Below, piece after piece: positions 18,644 to 57,912 of a stretch of 64,000 nt of DNA (its first letter is position 1; each line of letters begins with the position of its first letter). The stretch spans positions 3,663,001 through 3,727,000 of the forward strand of contig NC_092674.1 in assembly GCF_964355755.1 (NCBI RefSeq). The letters are read 5' to 3'. The stretch is from Antedon mediterranea (lineage: Eukaryota; Echinodermata; Crinoidea; Comatulida; Antedonidae). The position numbers were made by a program, and so were the translations under genes. The notes beneath the pieces were generated by a model. That model ran no database searches. It saw only the letters and a program-made list of their open reading frames with translations, and was not told the DNA's origin.

Positions 18644-18850
18644 GCTCTATCTACACTATCAATCTTTGTTGTATTTTTTTGAATTTTTTTATTTGGTATT
18701 TCGCTTTAAGCGATAAAAATGTGATGTGCCCATACATTATGGACATGATGTCATATCACTACCATATTTGGGTATATCACTACCATATTTGGGTATATCA
18801 CTACCATATTTGGGCACATCTTTACTAGTTCGATAGTGTAGACAGAGCTT
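18644..18850 (+). mobile_element. MITE family A with triplicated internal 21-bp unit
   Basis: AGCTCTATCTACACTATCAA to GTGTAGACAGAGCTT, TA-flanked. Inside, ATCACTACCATATTTGGG plus TAT or CAC occurs three times in tandem. Confidence 0.9.
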
Positions 18851-27400: not shown

Positions 27401-30400
27401 ACTCCTGAAACTTCTTTTAATTTACTCTTATGCTCTATTTAAAAAAGAAATATTCAATTTCTATTATTTAACATTTATATTAATCATTACACAAAATTCA
27501 AAATAAAATATAAAACATACTGAAACCTGAAAATGAAAATATCATTACAAAAATTAAATTAAATTAAATAAGTTCGCTTAGTTAATATAATCAACAACTT
27601 ATTAAAAATGTTCATTATGATTTCTAATCAAATATTTTTAATACCATGTGATTGATTATACATACTTTCAAGATCACAACCATTTACAATGGAAAATTTG
27701 CGAATCTGAAAAAGAAAAAAAAAAGTAGTTTTATTTGTGACAATTATCAAAATTATTATTATCAAAAGTTCAAAAAGTTAAGCTCTGTCTACACTATTAA
27801 ACTTTATGTGACAAAAAAAAATGTGATGTGTCCATAATGATATACCACTACCATATTTAGACATATCACTACCAACCATATTTAGGCATATCACACTTTC
27901 TTTATCAAACTAGTTTGATAGTGTGGACAGAGATTTAGAATTCAATTTTACCAGTGAAAGAATAAATAAGAATTTGCAATGTTTTTTATATTATCTAGTT
28001 TTATTTGAGGTCAGGGACAGAAACACAAATATCAATGATTATTATAATTCTACTCGCCTTCTCTCCATTATCAGTCTCATTCACACCAGACACAAAATAA
28101 GTAACATTTAAAGAATTTGCTTCTTTAGTTATTTGTTGATTGAAGAAGGTATAAAGCATCCTGAAATGAAAAGCATAGTATGGAATTCAATGAAGAAACA
28201 GAAAAACAATTGTATTTTTAATTATTAATTAATTACAATTTATAACAATGTATAAAACAAATTTAATTAGAGAAATCATGATTTGTATGACACATACAGT
28301 AACATTGTCATGTATTTATTTTAAATAAATATGTAATGTTGTTTAAAGCTCTGTCTACACTATCACACTTTATGTGACAAAAAAATGTGATGTGCCCATA
28401 TATGGACAAGATGATGTCATACCACTACCATATTTGGGCACATCACTACCATATTTGGTTATCACCTTTTTTTGTGAAACTTGTTTGATAGTGTAGCCTA
28501 GACAGATTTTACATTAACTTATCACTTACTGTTTAGCTTGATTCACATGGACCTGTAATGTTTGGCTAAGCCATTTATAAGTAACCTGAAATAAAAATAC
28601 CACATATTGAACAAGCTTAGGCCTATCTAGTCATAACATACGGAAGCCTGTTCGGGCCACAAGTTAACTATATTTTAAAAGCTGTTATCTGGCGGCCGCC
28701 ACTTAATTATCTGGCGGCCGCCACTTAATTATCTGGCGGCCGCCACTTAATTATCTGGCTGCCGCCACTTAATAATTAGTACATGTCCCGTCACGTGACA
28801 TGTACAGGGAATAATTTCGCCAGTGTAGCATAGCAAAAAGATATACAAAACAACCATATTGCTACACATTTCGCAAATTGTGTAGCAAAAAATGCAATAC
28901 AAAACTATGTTTCTTGACTCAACAATCAGTTTGATTAGCAATTTTGATAAACAAAATTTTTAAATGAAATTTGTCCCTGATGTACGTGCATTGGATCAGA
29001 GGCGATGTTGCATATGGAACGCCATCGCTGCCTCCGGCAGCAAACTTTAATTCTATTCGGCTCTTTTACAACCATTACGTTCGGCTCTTTTAGCATTCGG
29101 CGCATTTCTATTCGGCCCATTTACCATATTTACGATTAAAGATGTGTTGAATAACCTAAAATTAATTCATCTTTTTACAAATTTTGAGAGAGAAAGGGTA
29201 AATTATTAAAATTGTTAAAAGTTAGGCTGACACTAGACTAGGTCTAGCTAGCCTAGGCCATAAATCAAACCTTTTCTCTTTCAAAATAGTCAATAAGGTG
29301 GGACAATTGCAAGTTCTCTAACACATTAATCATGTCAATAAAATGATTAGTCATATTGAAATAGCCTTCAAATTCATTTAATTCAACAAACCAAACACTC
29401 TACAGTACATGCTGCATCTATATGTTTTGTAAACTTTTCATAGACTCATTTCCAGCCGTTGATTTTCTTCCATTTGACCCCATGTAAAAGGTTAGAATTT
29501 AATTGCGGCGTATAAAAAAATAAAAAAGAGCCGAACGTAATGGTAAATGGGCCGAATAAAAAAGAGCCGAATGCTGAAAGAGCCAAACGTAATGGTAAAT
29601 GGACCGAATAGAAATGCGCCGAATGGTAAAAGAGCCGAATAGAATTAAAGTTTGCTGCCGGAGGCGGCGATGGCGTTCCATATGCAACATTGCCTCTGAT
29701 CCGATGCACGTACATGTCACGTGACGGGACATGTACTAATTATTAAGTGGCGGCCGCCAGATAATTAAGTGGCGGCCGCCAGATAATTAAGTGGCGGCCG
29801 CCAGATAATTAAGTGGCGGCCGCCAGATAATTAAGTGGCGGCCGCCAGATAATTAAGTGGCGGCCGCCAGATAATTAAGTGGCGGCCGCCAGATAATTAA
29901 GTGGCGGCCGCCAGATAATTAAGTGGCGGCCGCCAGATAATTAAGTGGCGGCCGCCAGATAATTAAGTGGCGGCCGCCAGATAATTAAGTGGCGGCCGCC
30001 AGATAATTAAGTGGCGGCCGCCAGATAATTAAGTGGCGGCCGCCAGATAATTAAGTGGCGGCCGCCAGATAATTAAGTGGCGGCCGCCAGATAATTAAGT
30101 GGCGGCCGCCAGATAATTAAGTGGCGGCCGCCAGATAATTAAGTGGCGGCCGCCAGATAATTAAGTGGCGGCCGCCAGATAATTAAGTGGCGGCCGCCAG
30201 ATAATTAAGTGGCGGCCGCCAGATAATTAAGTGGCGGCCGCCAGATAATTAAGTGGCGGCCGCCAGATAATTAAGTGGCGGCCGCCAGATAATTAAGTGG
30301 CGGCCGCCTGATAACAGCTTTTAAAATATAGTTAACTTGTGGCCCGAACGGGCTTCCGTAATAACATGCACATGCCAGTGAATGTCAATGAAGATGATGG

Positions 30401-30629
30401 CGCCCGTCACTTTTTTAGGTTAGCCTAGGCTACATTACAACTAGCCGCCTACAGCTAGCAATCTATCTAGGCCTAGCTAGTTTAAGCTTTAATAACAATA
30501 TTCATCTAAACTATGGTAGAAAGATACACAAATACATTTTACTGGATATAAATACTTAATATAACTTACTATTTTGTTTTCATCAAAAACAAACTCTTCT
30601 AAATTTTCGAGGTACATATCCCCCGCCAT
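24468..30629 (-). CDS. POLD3: DNA polymerase delta subunit 3 (p66/p68), 10 exons, complete
   Basis: Exons in transcript order: 30570-30629, 28530-28585, 28058-28160, 27666-27705, 27296-27434, 26140-26488, 25782-26043, 25556-25618, 24893-25093, 24468-24649. The joined CDS is 1455 nt (484 aa; human 466 aa). The N-terminal winged-helix region that binds POLD2 is clear: MAGDMYLENLEEFVFDENKI, VTYKWLS, LNVTYFVSG, VHIYSVQKSQLKD, IKCAAAK. A long, charged, disordered middle follows (SAMDMFTSMKSKK, KGMLAFMSKK, SDSDEEG, NPKKKRRRI as a likely nuclear signal), then VTEKYFEYE. The last residues QKSIMSFFKKS are a canonical PIP box (Q..I..FF) for PCNA binding. Family role: accessory subunit of Pol delta (and Pol zeta) in nuclear replication and repair. 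The exon 3 donor is GC (AAG|GCGAGT); all other introns are GT-AG. The start is fixed by homology and the short leader to the divergent FECH gene. Intron 1 carries the GC-palindrome foldback. Confidence 0.95.
25255..25370 (+). mobile_element. tRNA-like SINE head, fragment
   Basis: TTTGGTCGAGTGG (box A-like, from 25302) and CCCTGGGTTCGAGGTC (box B-like, near 25343) are spaced as in a Ser/Leu-type tRNA, but no acceptor stem pairs. A decayed SINE head is likelier than a tRNA gene. In POLD3 intron 8. Confidence 0.4.
26823..27285 (+). mobile_element. MITE family A interrupted by another MITE
   Basis: AGCTCTGTTTACACTATCAA to GTGTAGACAGAGCT, TA-flanked, split by a 317-bp insert plus 9-bp duplication (26894-27219). 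In POLD3 intron 5, ending 11 bp before exon 5. Confidence 0.85.
26894..27210 (+). mobile_element. MITE family H, 14-bp perfect TIRs, 9-bp target duplication
   Basis: CTTTCTTTCCTAGG at the left and CCTAGGAAAGAAAG at the right. ATATTACAT is duplicated at 26885-26893 and 27211-27219. The 317-bp interior is AT-rich and noncoding. A 9-bp duplication fits Mutator- or Merlin-type transposases; the superfamily is not settled. Confidence 0.8.
27781..27935 (+). mobile_element. MITE family A, full-length
   Basis: AGCTCTGTCTACACTATTAA to GATAGTGTGGACAGAGATT; contains CATATCACTACCA repeats. POLD3 intron 3. Confidence 0.9.
28346..28508 (+). mobile_element. MITE family A, full-length
   Basis: AAGCTCTGTCTACACTATCA to GTGTAGCCTAGACAGATTT; the right TIR has a small insertion (CCTA). 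POLD3 intron 2, ending 22 bp from exon 2. Confidence 0.85.
28691..28766 (-). repeat. 22-bp GC-palindrome array, left arm (4 copies)
   Basis: GGCGGCCGCC at 28691, 28713 and 28735, then GGCTGCCGCC at 28757, every 22 bp, in opposite orientation to the right array. Confidence 0.95.
29743..30308 (+). repeat. 22-bp GC-palindrome array, right arm (26 exact copies)
   Basis: GGCGGCCGCC occurs at 29749 and every 22 bp up to 30299, joined by AGATAATTAAGT. That is 26 copies with no visible change. Each unit contains the octamer GCGGCCGC (NotI site) and two CpGs in an otherwise AT-rich region. Confidence 0.97.
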
Positions 30630-30890
30630 TCTATCCAAAACATTGAAAAATCCGCGAAATAACCGGAAATGGCAAACATTGTTTTTCACTGCGGTTCGGC
30701 ACGATATTATTGTACGTTAGAGATTAACAAGGCAGTAACTTACCAATTACCAACTGTGTCACGCTTCATTTCACCTTAGGTAATGGAATGATTGTAGAAG
30801 GACCTTCAGGTGTTGTTGAAGATTGGAGTTGTATGACTTTGCATATTTATTAATTTCATGCCTGGATGAACTAAAAATTAATTTTTTAAT
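30630..30890. promoter_or_regulatory. Divergent POLD3/FECH promoter region
   Basis: Only 261 bp separate the two start codons on opposite strands, so both genes must be started from here (5'-UTR introns aside). No TATA box stands at a convincing distance from either gene. CCAATTACCAACTGTGTCAC is present near 30745. That it acts as one shared promoter is inference. Confidence 0.6.
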
Positions 30891-32135
30891 ATGTATTCTA
30901 ATTATGGATATCGGACATTGTCTACATTTGCAAGAAAGGCATGTTTATCTATGTCTAATGTTAGGCCTACGATATTTGCAAGATGCATTCAAAGTGGTGT
31001 AGAAAAGTCAGCACAGCAACAACAAACAGCTGCTGACGTACAGCTTAGCAAACCAAAGACCGGTATTATGTTATTCAATATGGGAGGGCCTGAAAATACC
31101 GATGAGGTCCATGATTTTCTGCTTCGCCTTTTTACTGATCGTGACATCATCAGACTGCCAGCGCAAAGTACTTTAGCTCCGTGGATTGCAAAGAGAAGAA
31201 CTCCAAAAATCCAAGAACAATATAGCAAGATAGGGGGTGGGTCTCCTATCAAAAAGTGGACAAATATCCAAGGCAAGAAACTTGTACAAATCTTGGATAA
31301 AATCAGTCCCGATTCAGCACCTCATAAATATTACATTGGTTTTCGTTACGCCAAACCGTATACTGAGGATACAATAGACGAAATGGAAAAGGACGGACTA
31401 GAACGAGCAATAGCGTTTAGTCAGTACCCGCAGTACAGCTGCTCAACAGCTGGCAGCAGTCTTAATTCAATGTTTCGTCATTACAACAAGCGACGAATCG
31501 CTGGACACGAGAACCGCATTCAATGGAGCATCATCGATCGATGGGCCACGCATCCGGGCCTCATAAAAGCATTCGCAGAACAAATTAAAGCCCAACTGAA
31601 AACATTCCCGCAGGATAAACAGGAAGAGGTTGTCCTTCTATTCTCAGCTCATTCTCTCCCTATGATGGCAGTCAATCGAGGTGATCCTTATCCGCAAGAG
31701 GTTGCTGCCACCGTTCACCGAGTCATGGAACATCTAAATTTCTCACATCAGTATCGTCTTGTCTGGCAGTCGAAGGTGGGACCGGCAGCGTGGCTTGGAC
31801 CACAGACCGATGAAGCTATAAAAGGATTGTGTCGCAATGGTCGCAAGAACATGATGTTGATTCCGATTGCGTTTGTCAATGATCATATTGAAACTCTGTA
31901 TGAACTAGATTTAGAATATGCCACAGAACTTGCCGAGGAATGTGGTGTAGAAAATATACGCCGTGCAGATAGTCTAAATGATAACGAAACATTTATTCAA
32001 GCAATGGCTGATATTGTGAAAAATCACTTAAAATCTGGCGAAATAAGCTCACGACAGCTAGGCCTACGATGCCCCATGTGTGACAATCCTGTTTGTGGAG
32101 AAACTAAACAATATTTTGCTAATCAAAAAATTTGA
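30891..32135 (+). CDS. FECH: Ferrochelatase, mitochondrial, single exon
   Basis: 414 aa. Catalyses insertion of Fe2+ into protoporphyrin IX, the last step of haem synthesis, at the matrix side of the inner mitochondrial membrane. Residues 1 to about 50 are an Arg/Lys/Ser-rich presequence without acidic residues up to about 37. The mature enzyme starts at [13 protein letters not shown]. Recognisable blocks: [45 protein letters not shown] (His254), [10 protein letters not shown] and [13 protein letters not shown] with the catalytic His332 and Glu334. Four cysteines for the animal [2Fe-2S] cluster are kept: Cys184 and [10 protein letters not shown] (394, 397, 402). The start is fixed by an in-frame TAA 12 nt upstream. 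There is no intron, unlike the multi-exon vertebrate gene. It is intact, so intron loss or a working retrocopy, not a pseudogene. Divergent from POLD3. Confidence 0.97.
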
Positions 32136-56114: not shown

Positions 56115-57912
56115 CAATAGAACCCCTATTAAGGGGACACATTCAGAACCCCTATTAAGGGGACCCAATGGAACCCCTATTAAGGGGACACATTCAAATC
56201 CTATTAAGGGGATACATTCAGAACCCCTATTAAAGGACAACTGTACCGAGGACCATATTTTAAAAACGTATTAGGGGTATACATATGATTTCAGAACCAT
56301 CGAGGATATCGCCGCACGCGCTCGCCGTACAGCCGTCGCCGTAAATTGCTGTGACGTCACAGGTGCATCGCATAATCTACTTAATGAGTTTTCGCTGTTG
56401 TTACCATACAATAGATAGGTACCGTCACTTCAATTGCTTATTTAACCTTTTAAATTACTTAAATTTGCCAAAATGTTTTCCTGGTATTTTGAAGAAACAC
56501 TTCAATATCCATATAGACAAAACAAACAATAAAACAATTCAACTTTTATATTTTTTACAATTTATTTAAAAAGTGTGTTTACTAGAAATGTTCGCGCTTT
56601 GCGAGACTTGTCTATGGGACCCGAAGAGTAGCTAGTAGAAACATGACGTATGACGTTCTGGAATCATTCAACCATATCGGACTCAAAACTTTTTCTCTGC
56701 TAGCTAGCGATTTTTGGGCCGTGCGAGCTTCCTCCTCCTCGTGTGTGTGACGGTGGTGTGATCAACATTGTGTAGAGTAGTATAGTAGAGAGAGGGAACT
56801 GAAAATGCCGGCGTGTTTTGAGTCCGATATGGTTGAATGATTCCAGAACGTCATACGTCATGTTTCTACTAGCTACTCTTCGGGTCCCATAGACAAGTCT
56901 CGCAAAGCGCGAACATTTCTAGTAAACACACTTTTTAAATAAATCGTAAAAAATATAAAAGTTGAATTGTTTTATTGTTTGTTTTGTCTATCTGGATATT
57001 GAAGTGTTTCTTCAAAATACCAGGAAAACATTTTGGCAAATTTAAGTAATTTAAAAGGTTAAATAAGCAATTGAAGTGACGGTACCTATCTATTGTATGG
57101 TAACAACAGCGAAAACTCATTAAGTAGATTATGCGATGCACCTGTGACGTCACAGCAATTTACGGCGATGGCTGTACGGCGAGCGCGTGCGGCGATATCC
57201 TCGATTTCGCGATGGTTCTGAAATCATGTATACCCCTAATACGTTTTTAAAATATGGTCCTCGGTACAGTTGTCCTTTAAGGGGACCCAATGGAACCCCT
57301 ATTAAGGGGACACATTCAGAACCCCTATTAGGGGACACATTCAGAACTCCTATTACGGGACACATCCAGAACCCCTATTAAGGGGACACATTCAGAACTC
57401 CTATTAAGGGGACACATCCAAAACCTCTATTAAGGGAATACATCCAGAACCCCTATTAAGGGGGCACATCCAGAACCCCTATTAGGGGACACATTCAGAA
57501 CTCCTATTAGGGAACACATTCAGAACCCCTATTAGGGGACACATTCAGAACTCCTATTAGGGGACACATTCAGAACCCCTATTAAAGGGACACATTCAGA
57601 ACCCCTATTAAAGGGACACATCCAGAACCCCTATTAGGGGACACATTCAGAACCCATATTAAGGGGACACATTCAGAACTTCTATTAAGGGGACACATCC
57701 AGAACCTCTATTAAGGGGATACATTTGGAACCCCTATTAAGGAGACACATTTGGAACCCTATTAAGGGGACACATCCAGAACCCCTATTAAGGGGACACA
57801 TCCAGAACCCCTATTAAGGGGACACATCCAGGACCCCTATTAAGGGGACACATCCAGAACCCCTATTAAGAGGACACATACAGGACCCCTATTAAGGGGA
57901 CACATCCAGGAC
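56115..57912. repeat. ~26-bp minisatellite (CCCCTATTAAGGGGACAC), split by a foldback
   Basis: The unit reads AACCCCTATTAAGGGGACAC plus ATTCAG or ATCCAG; each holds the interrupted palindrome CCCC-TATTAA-GGGG. A few units lie left of the foldback (56115-56230) and more than 20 right of it (57281-57912). It ends in GACTGATTAAAATGTCCCCT, the same wording as single dispersed copies near 24780. Confidence 0.95.
56231..57280. mobile_element. Foldback element, ~470-bp near-identical arms, TTAA target
   Basis: Arms 56231-56699 and 56813-57280 are inverted copies; open frames read from both arms differ in 2 of 72 residues. The spacer is about 113 bp (TCTCTGCTAGCTAGCG ... AAATGCCGGCGTG). Edges read TTAA|AGGACAACTGTACCG and CGGTACAGTTGTCCT|TTAA. 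The TTAA is part of the surrounding minisatellite unit, so insertion was into the array. TTAA targets are known for piggyBac and Kolobok groups; no transposase is present. Confidence 0.85.

Follow-up and report, generated by a model that had tools for sequence, protein, structure and literature searches.

What kind of sequence lies in the first intron of POLD3 in the crinoid Antedon mediterranea, and what are the rows of palindromic units within it for? In the window, by which we mean the whole stretch of 64,000 nucleotides that was analysed, the first coding exon encodes 20 residues with a match to DNA polymerase delta subunit 3: the PDB matches listed at E ≤ 10 comprise three distinct sequences, all of this name (best E 0.0036), and Pfam gave no match for so short a query. 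Ferrochelatase (FECH) is encoded by the plus-strand frame 30882-32132 (E 8.6e-113). The distance to the last base of the POLD3 exon (30570) amounts to 209 bp from the end of the element described here and to 255 bp from the end of its array. The figure of 261 bp given for the array in an earlier note on this DNA is corrected accordingly.

The element, which lies at C5:3,691,639-3,693,360 of the genome, has a length of 1722 bp, starts with TACGGAAGCC and ends with its inverse, its terminal letters being TACGG..CCGTA, and ATAACA flanks it on both sides (Table 1). On the basis of these ends and of ATAACA the previously given span of 28640-30359 was corrected by one base on each side. A target duplication of 8 bp had also been proposed and was found to be wrong: in the copies of the family, left flanks always end in T and right flanks always start with A, so that these constant letters belong to the element and the duplication comprises 6 bp. 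The opposed ends are 97% alike across 138 bp, the arms continue past the arrays, where their inner parts have diverged (79% over 176 columns), and the loop is AT-rich. In the left arm, we observed an insertion of about 170 bp with a flanking repeat ATGTA (read by eye) that finds no match in any other fetched family copy and looks like a nested small element.

Table 1. Positions within the window of the foldback element, its parts and the neighbouring POLD3 exon.
Feature	Position	Strand	Remarks
Target duplication, left copy	28633-28638		ATAACA, 6 bp
Whole non-autonomous foldback element (family A)	28639-30360		TACGG..CCGTA
Left terminal inverted repeat	28639-28684	+	46 bp up to first unit
Left array	28685-28772	-	4 x 22-bp units, 3 exact; orientation opposed to right array
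Near-palindromic inner arm block	28779-28805	+	Adjoins left array; GTACATGTC..GACATGTAC; common to other copies
Small inserted element	28805-28978		CAGGGA..TCCCTG ends; absent from other copies; edges +/- few bases
Inner arms and loop	28981-29735		Degenerate ~52-bp ATTCGGC-type repeats in inverted arms
Diverged inverted copy of coding-like segment	29141-29200	+	20 residues, 60% identical to segment
Coding-like segment	29268-29354	-	29 residues
Right array	29743-30314	+	26 x 22-bp units, 25 exact
Right terminal inverted repeat	30315-30360	-	
Target duplication, right copy	30361-30366		ATAACA
POLD3 first coding exon	30570-30629	-	Host gene; ATG 30629, exon end 30570

The unit of the arrays is TTAAGTGGCGGCCGCCAGATAA, 22 bp long and centred on GGCGGCCGCC. 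The numbers of 26 and 4 units and their opposed orientation agree with what had been read before, but the units are not without visible change: 28 of the 30 are exact, the exceptions being the right unit nearest to the element end and the left unit farthest from it, each with a single changed base. In the array, the observed/expected ratio for CpG is 1.26. Among the 21 rows of tandem repeats with a period of 15-30 in the window (some of which overlap), a palindromic unit (at least 0.8) occurs only in the two rows of the element, and in 13 other loci (39,373 bases) two arrays with palindromic units were found, both of family A. Two consecutive units recur at 315 genomic places, and arrays of this kind can therefore not be put down to a local assembly error, the count of 26 units being taken as assembled. 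Other repeats of the window were observed as well. A 26-bp tandem array (AGAACCCCTATTAAGGGGACACATTC) at 56119-57909 holds another foldback (about 56229-57281) with TTAA at the edges, whose arms match at 99% over 391 bp and at 100% over a further 55 bp. Short arrays with a 21-23-bp unit and the motif ATATCACTACCATATTTG or its reverse complement lie at 18753, 37842, 41437, 41586 and 63022, and a similar motif is found near 28420.

In order to follow up the claim of a foldback mobile element in this intron, for which a search for other loci with the same terminal inverted repeat (TIR) had been suggested, the 354-Mb genome was searched with the 35-base end. This led to 86 places at up to 3 mismatches, compared to 0 with the reversed-pattern control, and together with the 6-bp duplications the claim was borne out. 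Fifty-one loci (L001-L051), together covering all 86 end places, were fetched. Duplications were counted for 33 usable pairs of opposed ends, excluding L010, L012 and the 16 single-ended loci L036-L051 and using the inner of two possible pairs in L034. Perfect duplications (6/6) were found for 24 of the 33 pairs, 4 more matched at 5/6, and 5 matched at no more than 3/6 positions; mispaired flanks gave 0/1056 at 6/6 and 15/1056 at 5/6. Family A is thus a dispersed mobile family with conserved ends and 6-bp duplications. Paired copies range in length from 69 bp to about 2.7 kb, the shortest being L006 (C2:9572469-9572537), which consists of two tips, has no array and shows a perfect duplication. 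The interior of the POLD3-intron copy is 95-97% identical to that of L007, L017, L022, L024, L026, L028, L032 and L033 and 88-92% identical to that of L027, L035 and L011. Altogether, 39 of the 50 other family-A loci share some interior with it, many of them only about 60 bp. A recent spread of the family, as supposed before, is supported.

With respect to the superfamily, passages of PMC10045372 describe IS3EU elements with TA..TA termini and usually 6-bp duplications, and passages of PMC12730594 give TAYGG..CCRTA ends, TIRs of over 30 bp and 6-bp duplications for fungal IS3EU families. Family A resembles IS3EU (with GingerRoot) in its TA..TA ends, which are TACGG..CCGTA (families B and C, see below, end in TACGA), in a TIR of over 30 bp, as the 138-bp match illustrates, and in duplications of 6 bp, perfect in most pairs and represented by ATAACA in the window copy. 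Since ends, long TIRs and duplications fit IS3EU, the genome was searched for the rva_4 integrase core (PF24764), which might be a suitable model for this type of transposase, and 77 matches were obtained. The likeness to IS3EU is a likeness to published descriptions, and the transposase gene found with the relatives in this genome has an IS3/IS481-like integrase core. Subterminal palindrome arrays and foldbacks with a transposase frame per arm are unmentioned in the portions of the IS3EU descriptions that were compared. Such arrays are likewise undescribed in the listed titles and abstract openings of the IS3EU literature (subscription papers and Repbase lying outside this scope) and unmentioned in passages of PMC10045372, PMC12730594, PMC8268682, PMC10853768 and PMC5844308. 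Passages of PMC8268682 report two oyster satellites with similarity to IS3EU, foldback being named there only in the references, so that a link between IS3EU and satellites had already been noted.

Nineteen stretches around rva_4 genes (L052-L064 and L079-L084) were fetched, five of which (L060-L064) had been chosen as group-B copies, L062 and L063 being neighbours. The end of family B, TACGAAAGCCTATTAGGGCCAA, with TACGA, has 17 of its first 21 bases in common with family A and, when no more than 3 mismatches are allowed, is found at 51 places versus 0 in the control; a few of these places are family-C or intermediate ends. Each arm of the family-B foldback L064 (C1:26564745-26570321, 5577 bp, duplication ATACTT/ATACTT) carries 21-bp palindromes (AATTCGAAATTTCGAATTATT) in an array as well as one rva_4 frame. 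These frames comprise 310 and 292 residues, the second one differing in a middle stretch, and match Pfam rva_4 with E values of 1.4e-28 and 4.8e-20, respectively; stretches of the arms are 93-95% identical. A second family-B copy has the flanks AAAATC/TAAATC, and the small family-B elements L069 and L070 have 6/6 duplications. In another small one, L071 (C5:3152464-3152535, 72 bp), two tips and a duplication matching at 4/6 were observed. At C1:5572635-5585349, C1:19508998-19521709, C3:19226669-19248705 and C8:19943194-19960402, two family-B ends are separated by 12 to 22 kb and have opposed rva_4 matches nearby. These pairs may be very large foldbacks that contain two genes, the pair of this type that was covered in full being L064 (5.6 kb).

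Family C has the end TACGAAAGCCCATTAATGCCAT, 21-bp palindromes and an rva_4 frame of 312 residues in L056, and its 293-bp element L067 shows a 6/6 duplication. At L073 (C10:6412500-6414700), a family-C end and family-C arrays lie between family-A arrays, which suggests that a family-C element is nested within a family-A one and that both have kept palindrome arrays of their own type. Family D (L054, L081 and, in part, L080) combines TACGGAAGCGTTAAAGTGCC with an array of about 53-54 bp that contains internal inverted repeats, and family E (L059) combines TACGGTGGCCTATAAGTGTC with a 24-bp non-palindromic array, its rva_4 match containing a stop. In family F (L079), the end is TACGGTGGCTGATTTCCGCC (read by eye), the array is made up of 21-bp palindromes (GGCGTTATAACGCC...), and the rva_4 frame comprises 327 residues. 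Near the genes of families C, D, E and F only a single end was observed, and these genes were assigned to the elements by position and reading direction; both ends around a transposase gene were found for family B alone, and a blind scan for TA..TA ends plus duplications around the rva_4 genes gave true ends in L064 only. An end plus an array with an rva_4 gene is present in nine stretches (L054, L056, L059, L060, L062, L063, L064, L079 and L081), and the layout is partial in L061 (array, no end) and in L080 and L083, where no end accompanies the short palindromic arrays. No clear end-plus-array layout was found in 7 of the 19 (L052, L053, L055, L057, L058, L082 and L084), where L053 and L055 have non-palindromic tandem arrays and L057 is a copy of the family-F gene whose match to L079 stops short of the array. 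At L052 (C5:18778700-18786700) we observed an rva_4 protein of 481 residues (best model match 5.7e-78) with no array or TACG end seen, which may be a transposase-derived host gene. The proteins of families B, C and F match NCBIfam IS481 with E values of 9.8e-7, 4.1e-3 and 5.6e-7 and NCBIfam IS3 with 1.5e-2, 4.1e-5 and 9.8e-9, respectively, all under the curated cut-off, and the family-B protein gave no PDB chain match by sequence at E ≤ 1.

When compared to shuffles, the units of families A (p 0.0035), B (p 0.0015), C (0/2000) and F (p 0.001) are palindromic, with a length of 21-22 bp and unlike sequences. The family-D unit is more weakly so (0.63-0.68 self-complementary, p 0.005 and 0/2000), and the arrays of family E (p 0.30) and of a further foldback, family H (p 0.96 and 0.99), are non-palindromic. 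In A-F, array type and end-family go together, and the layout of family A is like that of the end-families that lie with an rva_4 transposase gene. Tandem arrays as subterminal repeats of a foldback had been called rare; they are not so in this genome, where several end-families carry them.

As to an autonomous relative with the same TIR, related end-families beside an rva_4 gene were found, but not a transposase gene with exact family-A ends. No autonomous family-A copy was present in the 51 tip loci (single-ended ones covered for about 3 kb inward), in the tip loci L065, L066, L068 and L072-L078, in L085-L087, which contain the inner coding-like segment, or in the 19 rva_4 stretches, where exact GGCGGCCGCC was absent as well. 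A weaker tip search had given 130 tips (control 1), and loci were taken from the 100 listed among these 130, with 6 of those left out. Similarly, no remnant of the family-B transposase was detected in the 51 family-A loci (tblastn, E ≤ 1). L034 (C10:23833117-23839534), considered as an autonomous copy because of its 5.9 kb and a frame of 721 residues, was rejected, as this frame is Mab-21-like; it lies with a shorter, similar-looking frame between two family-A insertions. A piece of a reverse transcriptase in L025 and a duplication matching at 2/6 in the small element L066 were also observed.

These results suggest that the POLD3-intron element is probably a non-autonomous IS3EU-like cut-and-paste transposon whose arrays would act as multi-site docking platforms for the transposase. 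A transposase of the IS3/IS481-like group, encoded elsewhere, would recognise the 46-bp end together with the subterminal array. With about two helical turns per 22-bp unit and a palindromic core of 12 bp, the units would each bind a dimer of the transposase, all on one side of the helix, and the row of units would raise the specificity of end binding and help to pair the two ends. The length of the array might change freely through slippage or unequal exchange, the number of units not being fixed. For docking itself we see about even odds; it is proposed by analogy to Galileo, the tandem repeats of whose TIRs bind its THAP domain according to passages of PMC3688188.

Alternatively, the arrays might be passive in the same transposon, slippage-prone tandem repeats without a role in transposition, a possible reading that we nevertheless rather doubt. 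In agreement with it, the number of units per arm varies from 0 to 26 among the loci read, the arms are asymmetric, and 3 of the 51 loci (L006, L041 and L046; under a looser rule only L006 and L041) have no unit at 18/22 identity. The perfect duplication of array-less L006 indicates that elements may do without the array, unless it was lost after insertion. Also, conservation within family A is no higher in the palindromic core than in the spacer, with 84 changes over 10 sites versus 74 over 12 (p 0.053, the core being slightly more changed), and this, like the non-palindromic arrays of families E and H, speaks against docking too. However, each of the families A-F has its own array just inside the end, and in four of them this array consists of 21-22-bp palindromes that are unlike in sequence. 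Furthermore, 67 of 87 tips share one fixed distance, 46 bp, between the end of the element and the first unit (7 tips being without a unit within reach), and the step from unit to unit is nearly fixed, at exactly 22 bp in 410 of 416 cases.

A gene conversion or recent burst confined to the POLD3 locus is an improbable explanation for the homogeneity of the units. Besides its 25 exact units of 26, the right array is the longest among the 51 loci, and it may therefore have grown recently. However, 373 of the 501 units over the 51 loci are identical to the consensus, and in L036 all 23 of 23 are exact. Mean differences between units are 0.78 in the same array (60 arrays of at least 3), 0.82 between different copies and 0.88 between the two arms (20 elements). 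As units differ to about the same degree within arrays and between copies, the homogeneity reflects the youth of the family, and conversion at the POLD3 locus is not needed. Of the recent expansion or gene conversion that the earlier note had invoked, a recent lengthening remains likely, whereas local conversion was not supported, units of different copies being about as alike as those of one array.

That the element is a classical foldback of Mutator or P type (FB, Galileo, sea-urchin TU) is very unlikely. Mutator-like foldbacks such as FB and Tetris have long inverted arms with tandem repeats as found here, and this general build is shared by Galileo (passages of PMC3688188) and by Tetris (passages of PMC4079207, where a sea-urchin foldback also appears); however, duplications of 8-10 bp are described there for Tetris, and the 6 bp of family A largely refute this type. 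Galileo, of the P superfamily in Drosophila, has foldback arms with transposase-binding tandem repeats in a layout like that of family A, but its THAP P-type transposase and its ends differ from those of family A and its relatives. No THAP was found among the matches listed for the transposases of the relatives, which match rva_4, and ends and rva_4 relatives indicate an IS3/IS481-like integrase core instead. The sea-urchin TU is an animal foldback with short tandem repeats in its outer arm, as here, but its repeats of 15 bp and its duplications of 8 bp differ. Elements of hAT type have 8-bp duplications (5, 6 or 7 in subgroups) versus 6 bp here; a hAT6 subgroup with 6-bp duplications exists according to a passage of PMC12730594, and the rva_4 relatives speak against hAT.

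Transitions in the units are raised at CpG sites (28/1972) when compared to other C/G sites (21/3944), by 2.7x (Fisher p 0.0007), a hint that copies may get methylated. Though the array with its CpG observed/expected of 1.26 lies near the POLD3/FECH start region and CpG transitions are raised throughout the family, it is highly improbable that the CpG-dense cluster of GC palindromes serves the host by binding a host factor or drawing methylation and thereby setting POLD3/FECH expression, because the same arrays are found at many other places and thus were not made for POLD3.

Returning to the IS3EU-like transposon with its putative docking arrays, the interior of the element is not bound to one type of end. 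The 29-residue coding-like segment has 60 genome matches (E ≤ 10), of which 35 reach E ≤ 1.2e-8; matches also lie outside family-A loci, and Pfam gave none. To the N-terminal part of the rva_4 protein of L052 it shows a weak likeness (43%, E 0.12), and the superfamily assignment is therefore not based on this segment. One of five segment matches with equal score falls within another foldback (L085:415-2170, 1756 bp, duplication AATCTT on both sides), which represents family H. This foldback has TACGGTGGCCCACAACTGTCACG as its end, its 20- and 40-bp arrays are non-palindromic, and over 518 columns its interior shares 89.8% identity with that of the POLD3-intron element, so one interior occurs with two different end-plus-array modules.

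More tentatively, there might exist a group of IS3-like animal transposons with an exchangeable end cassette, made up of a TACG tip and a family-specific array of about 21-22-bp palindromes, which would be read by the N-terminal helix-turn-helix of the element's own transposase. Cassettes would be swapped between elements, and autonomous members would be foldbacks with a transposase gene per arm. If this were true, array sequences would evolve into a kind of address code, by which families living in the same genome stay separate. The finding links a conspicuous array of palindromes with a transposon superfamily that has received little study, and several natural families with different units and one layout in one genome make the role of foldback arrays testable. 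Such elements also supply a genome with ready-made short satellites that are homogeneous and widely dispersed.
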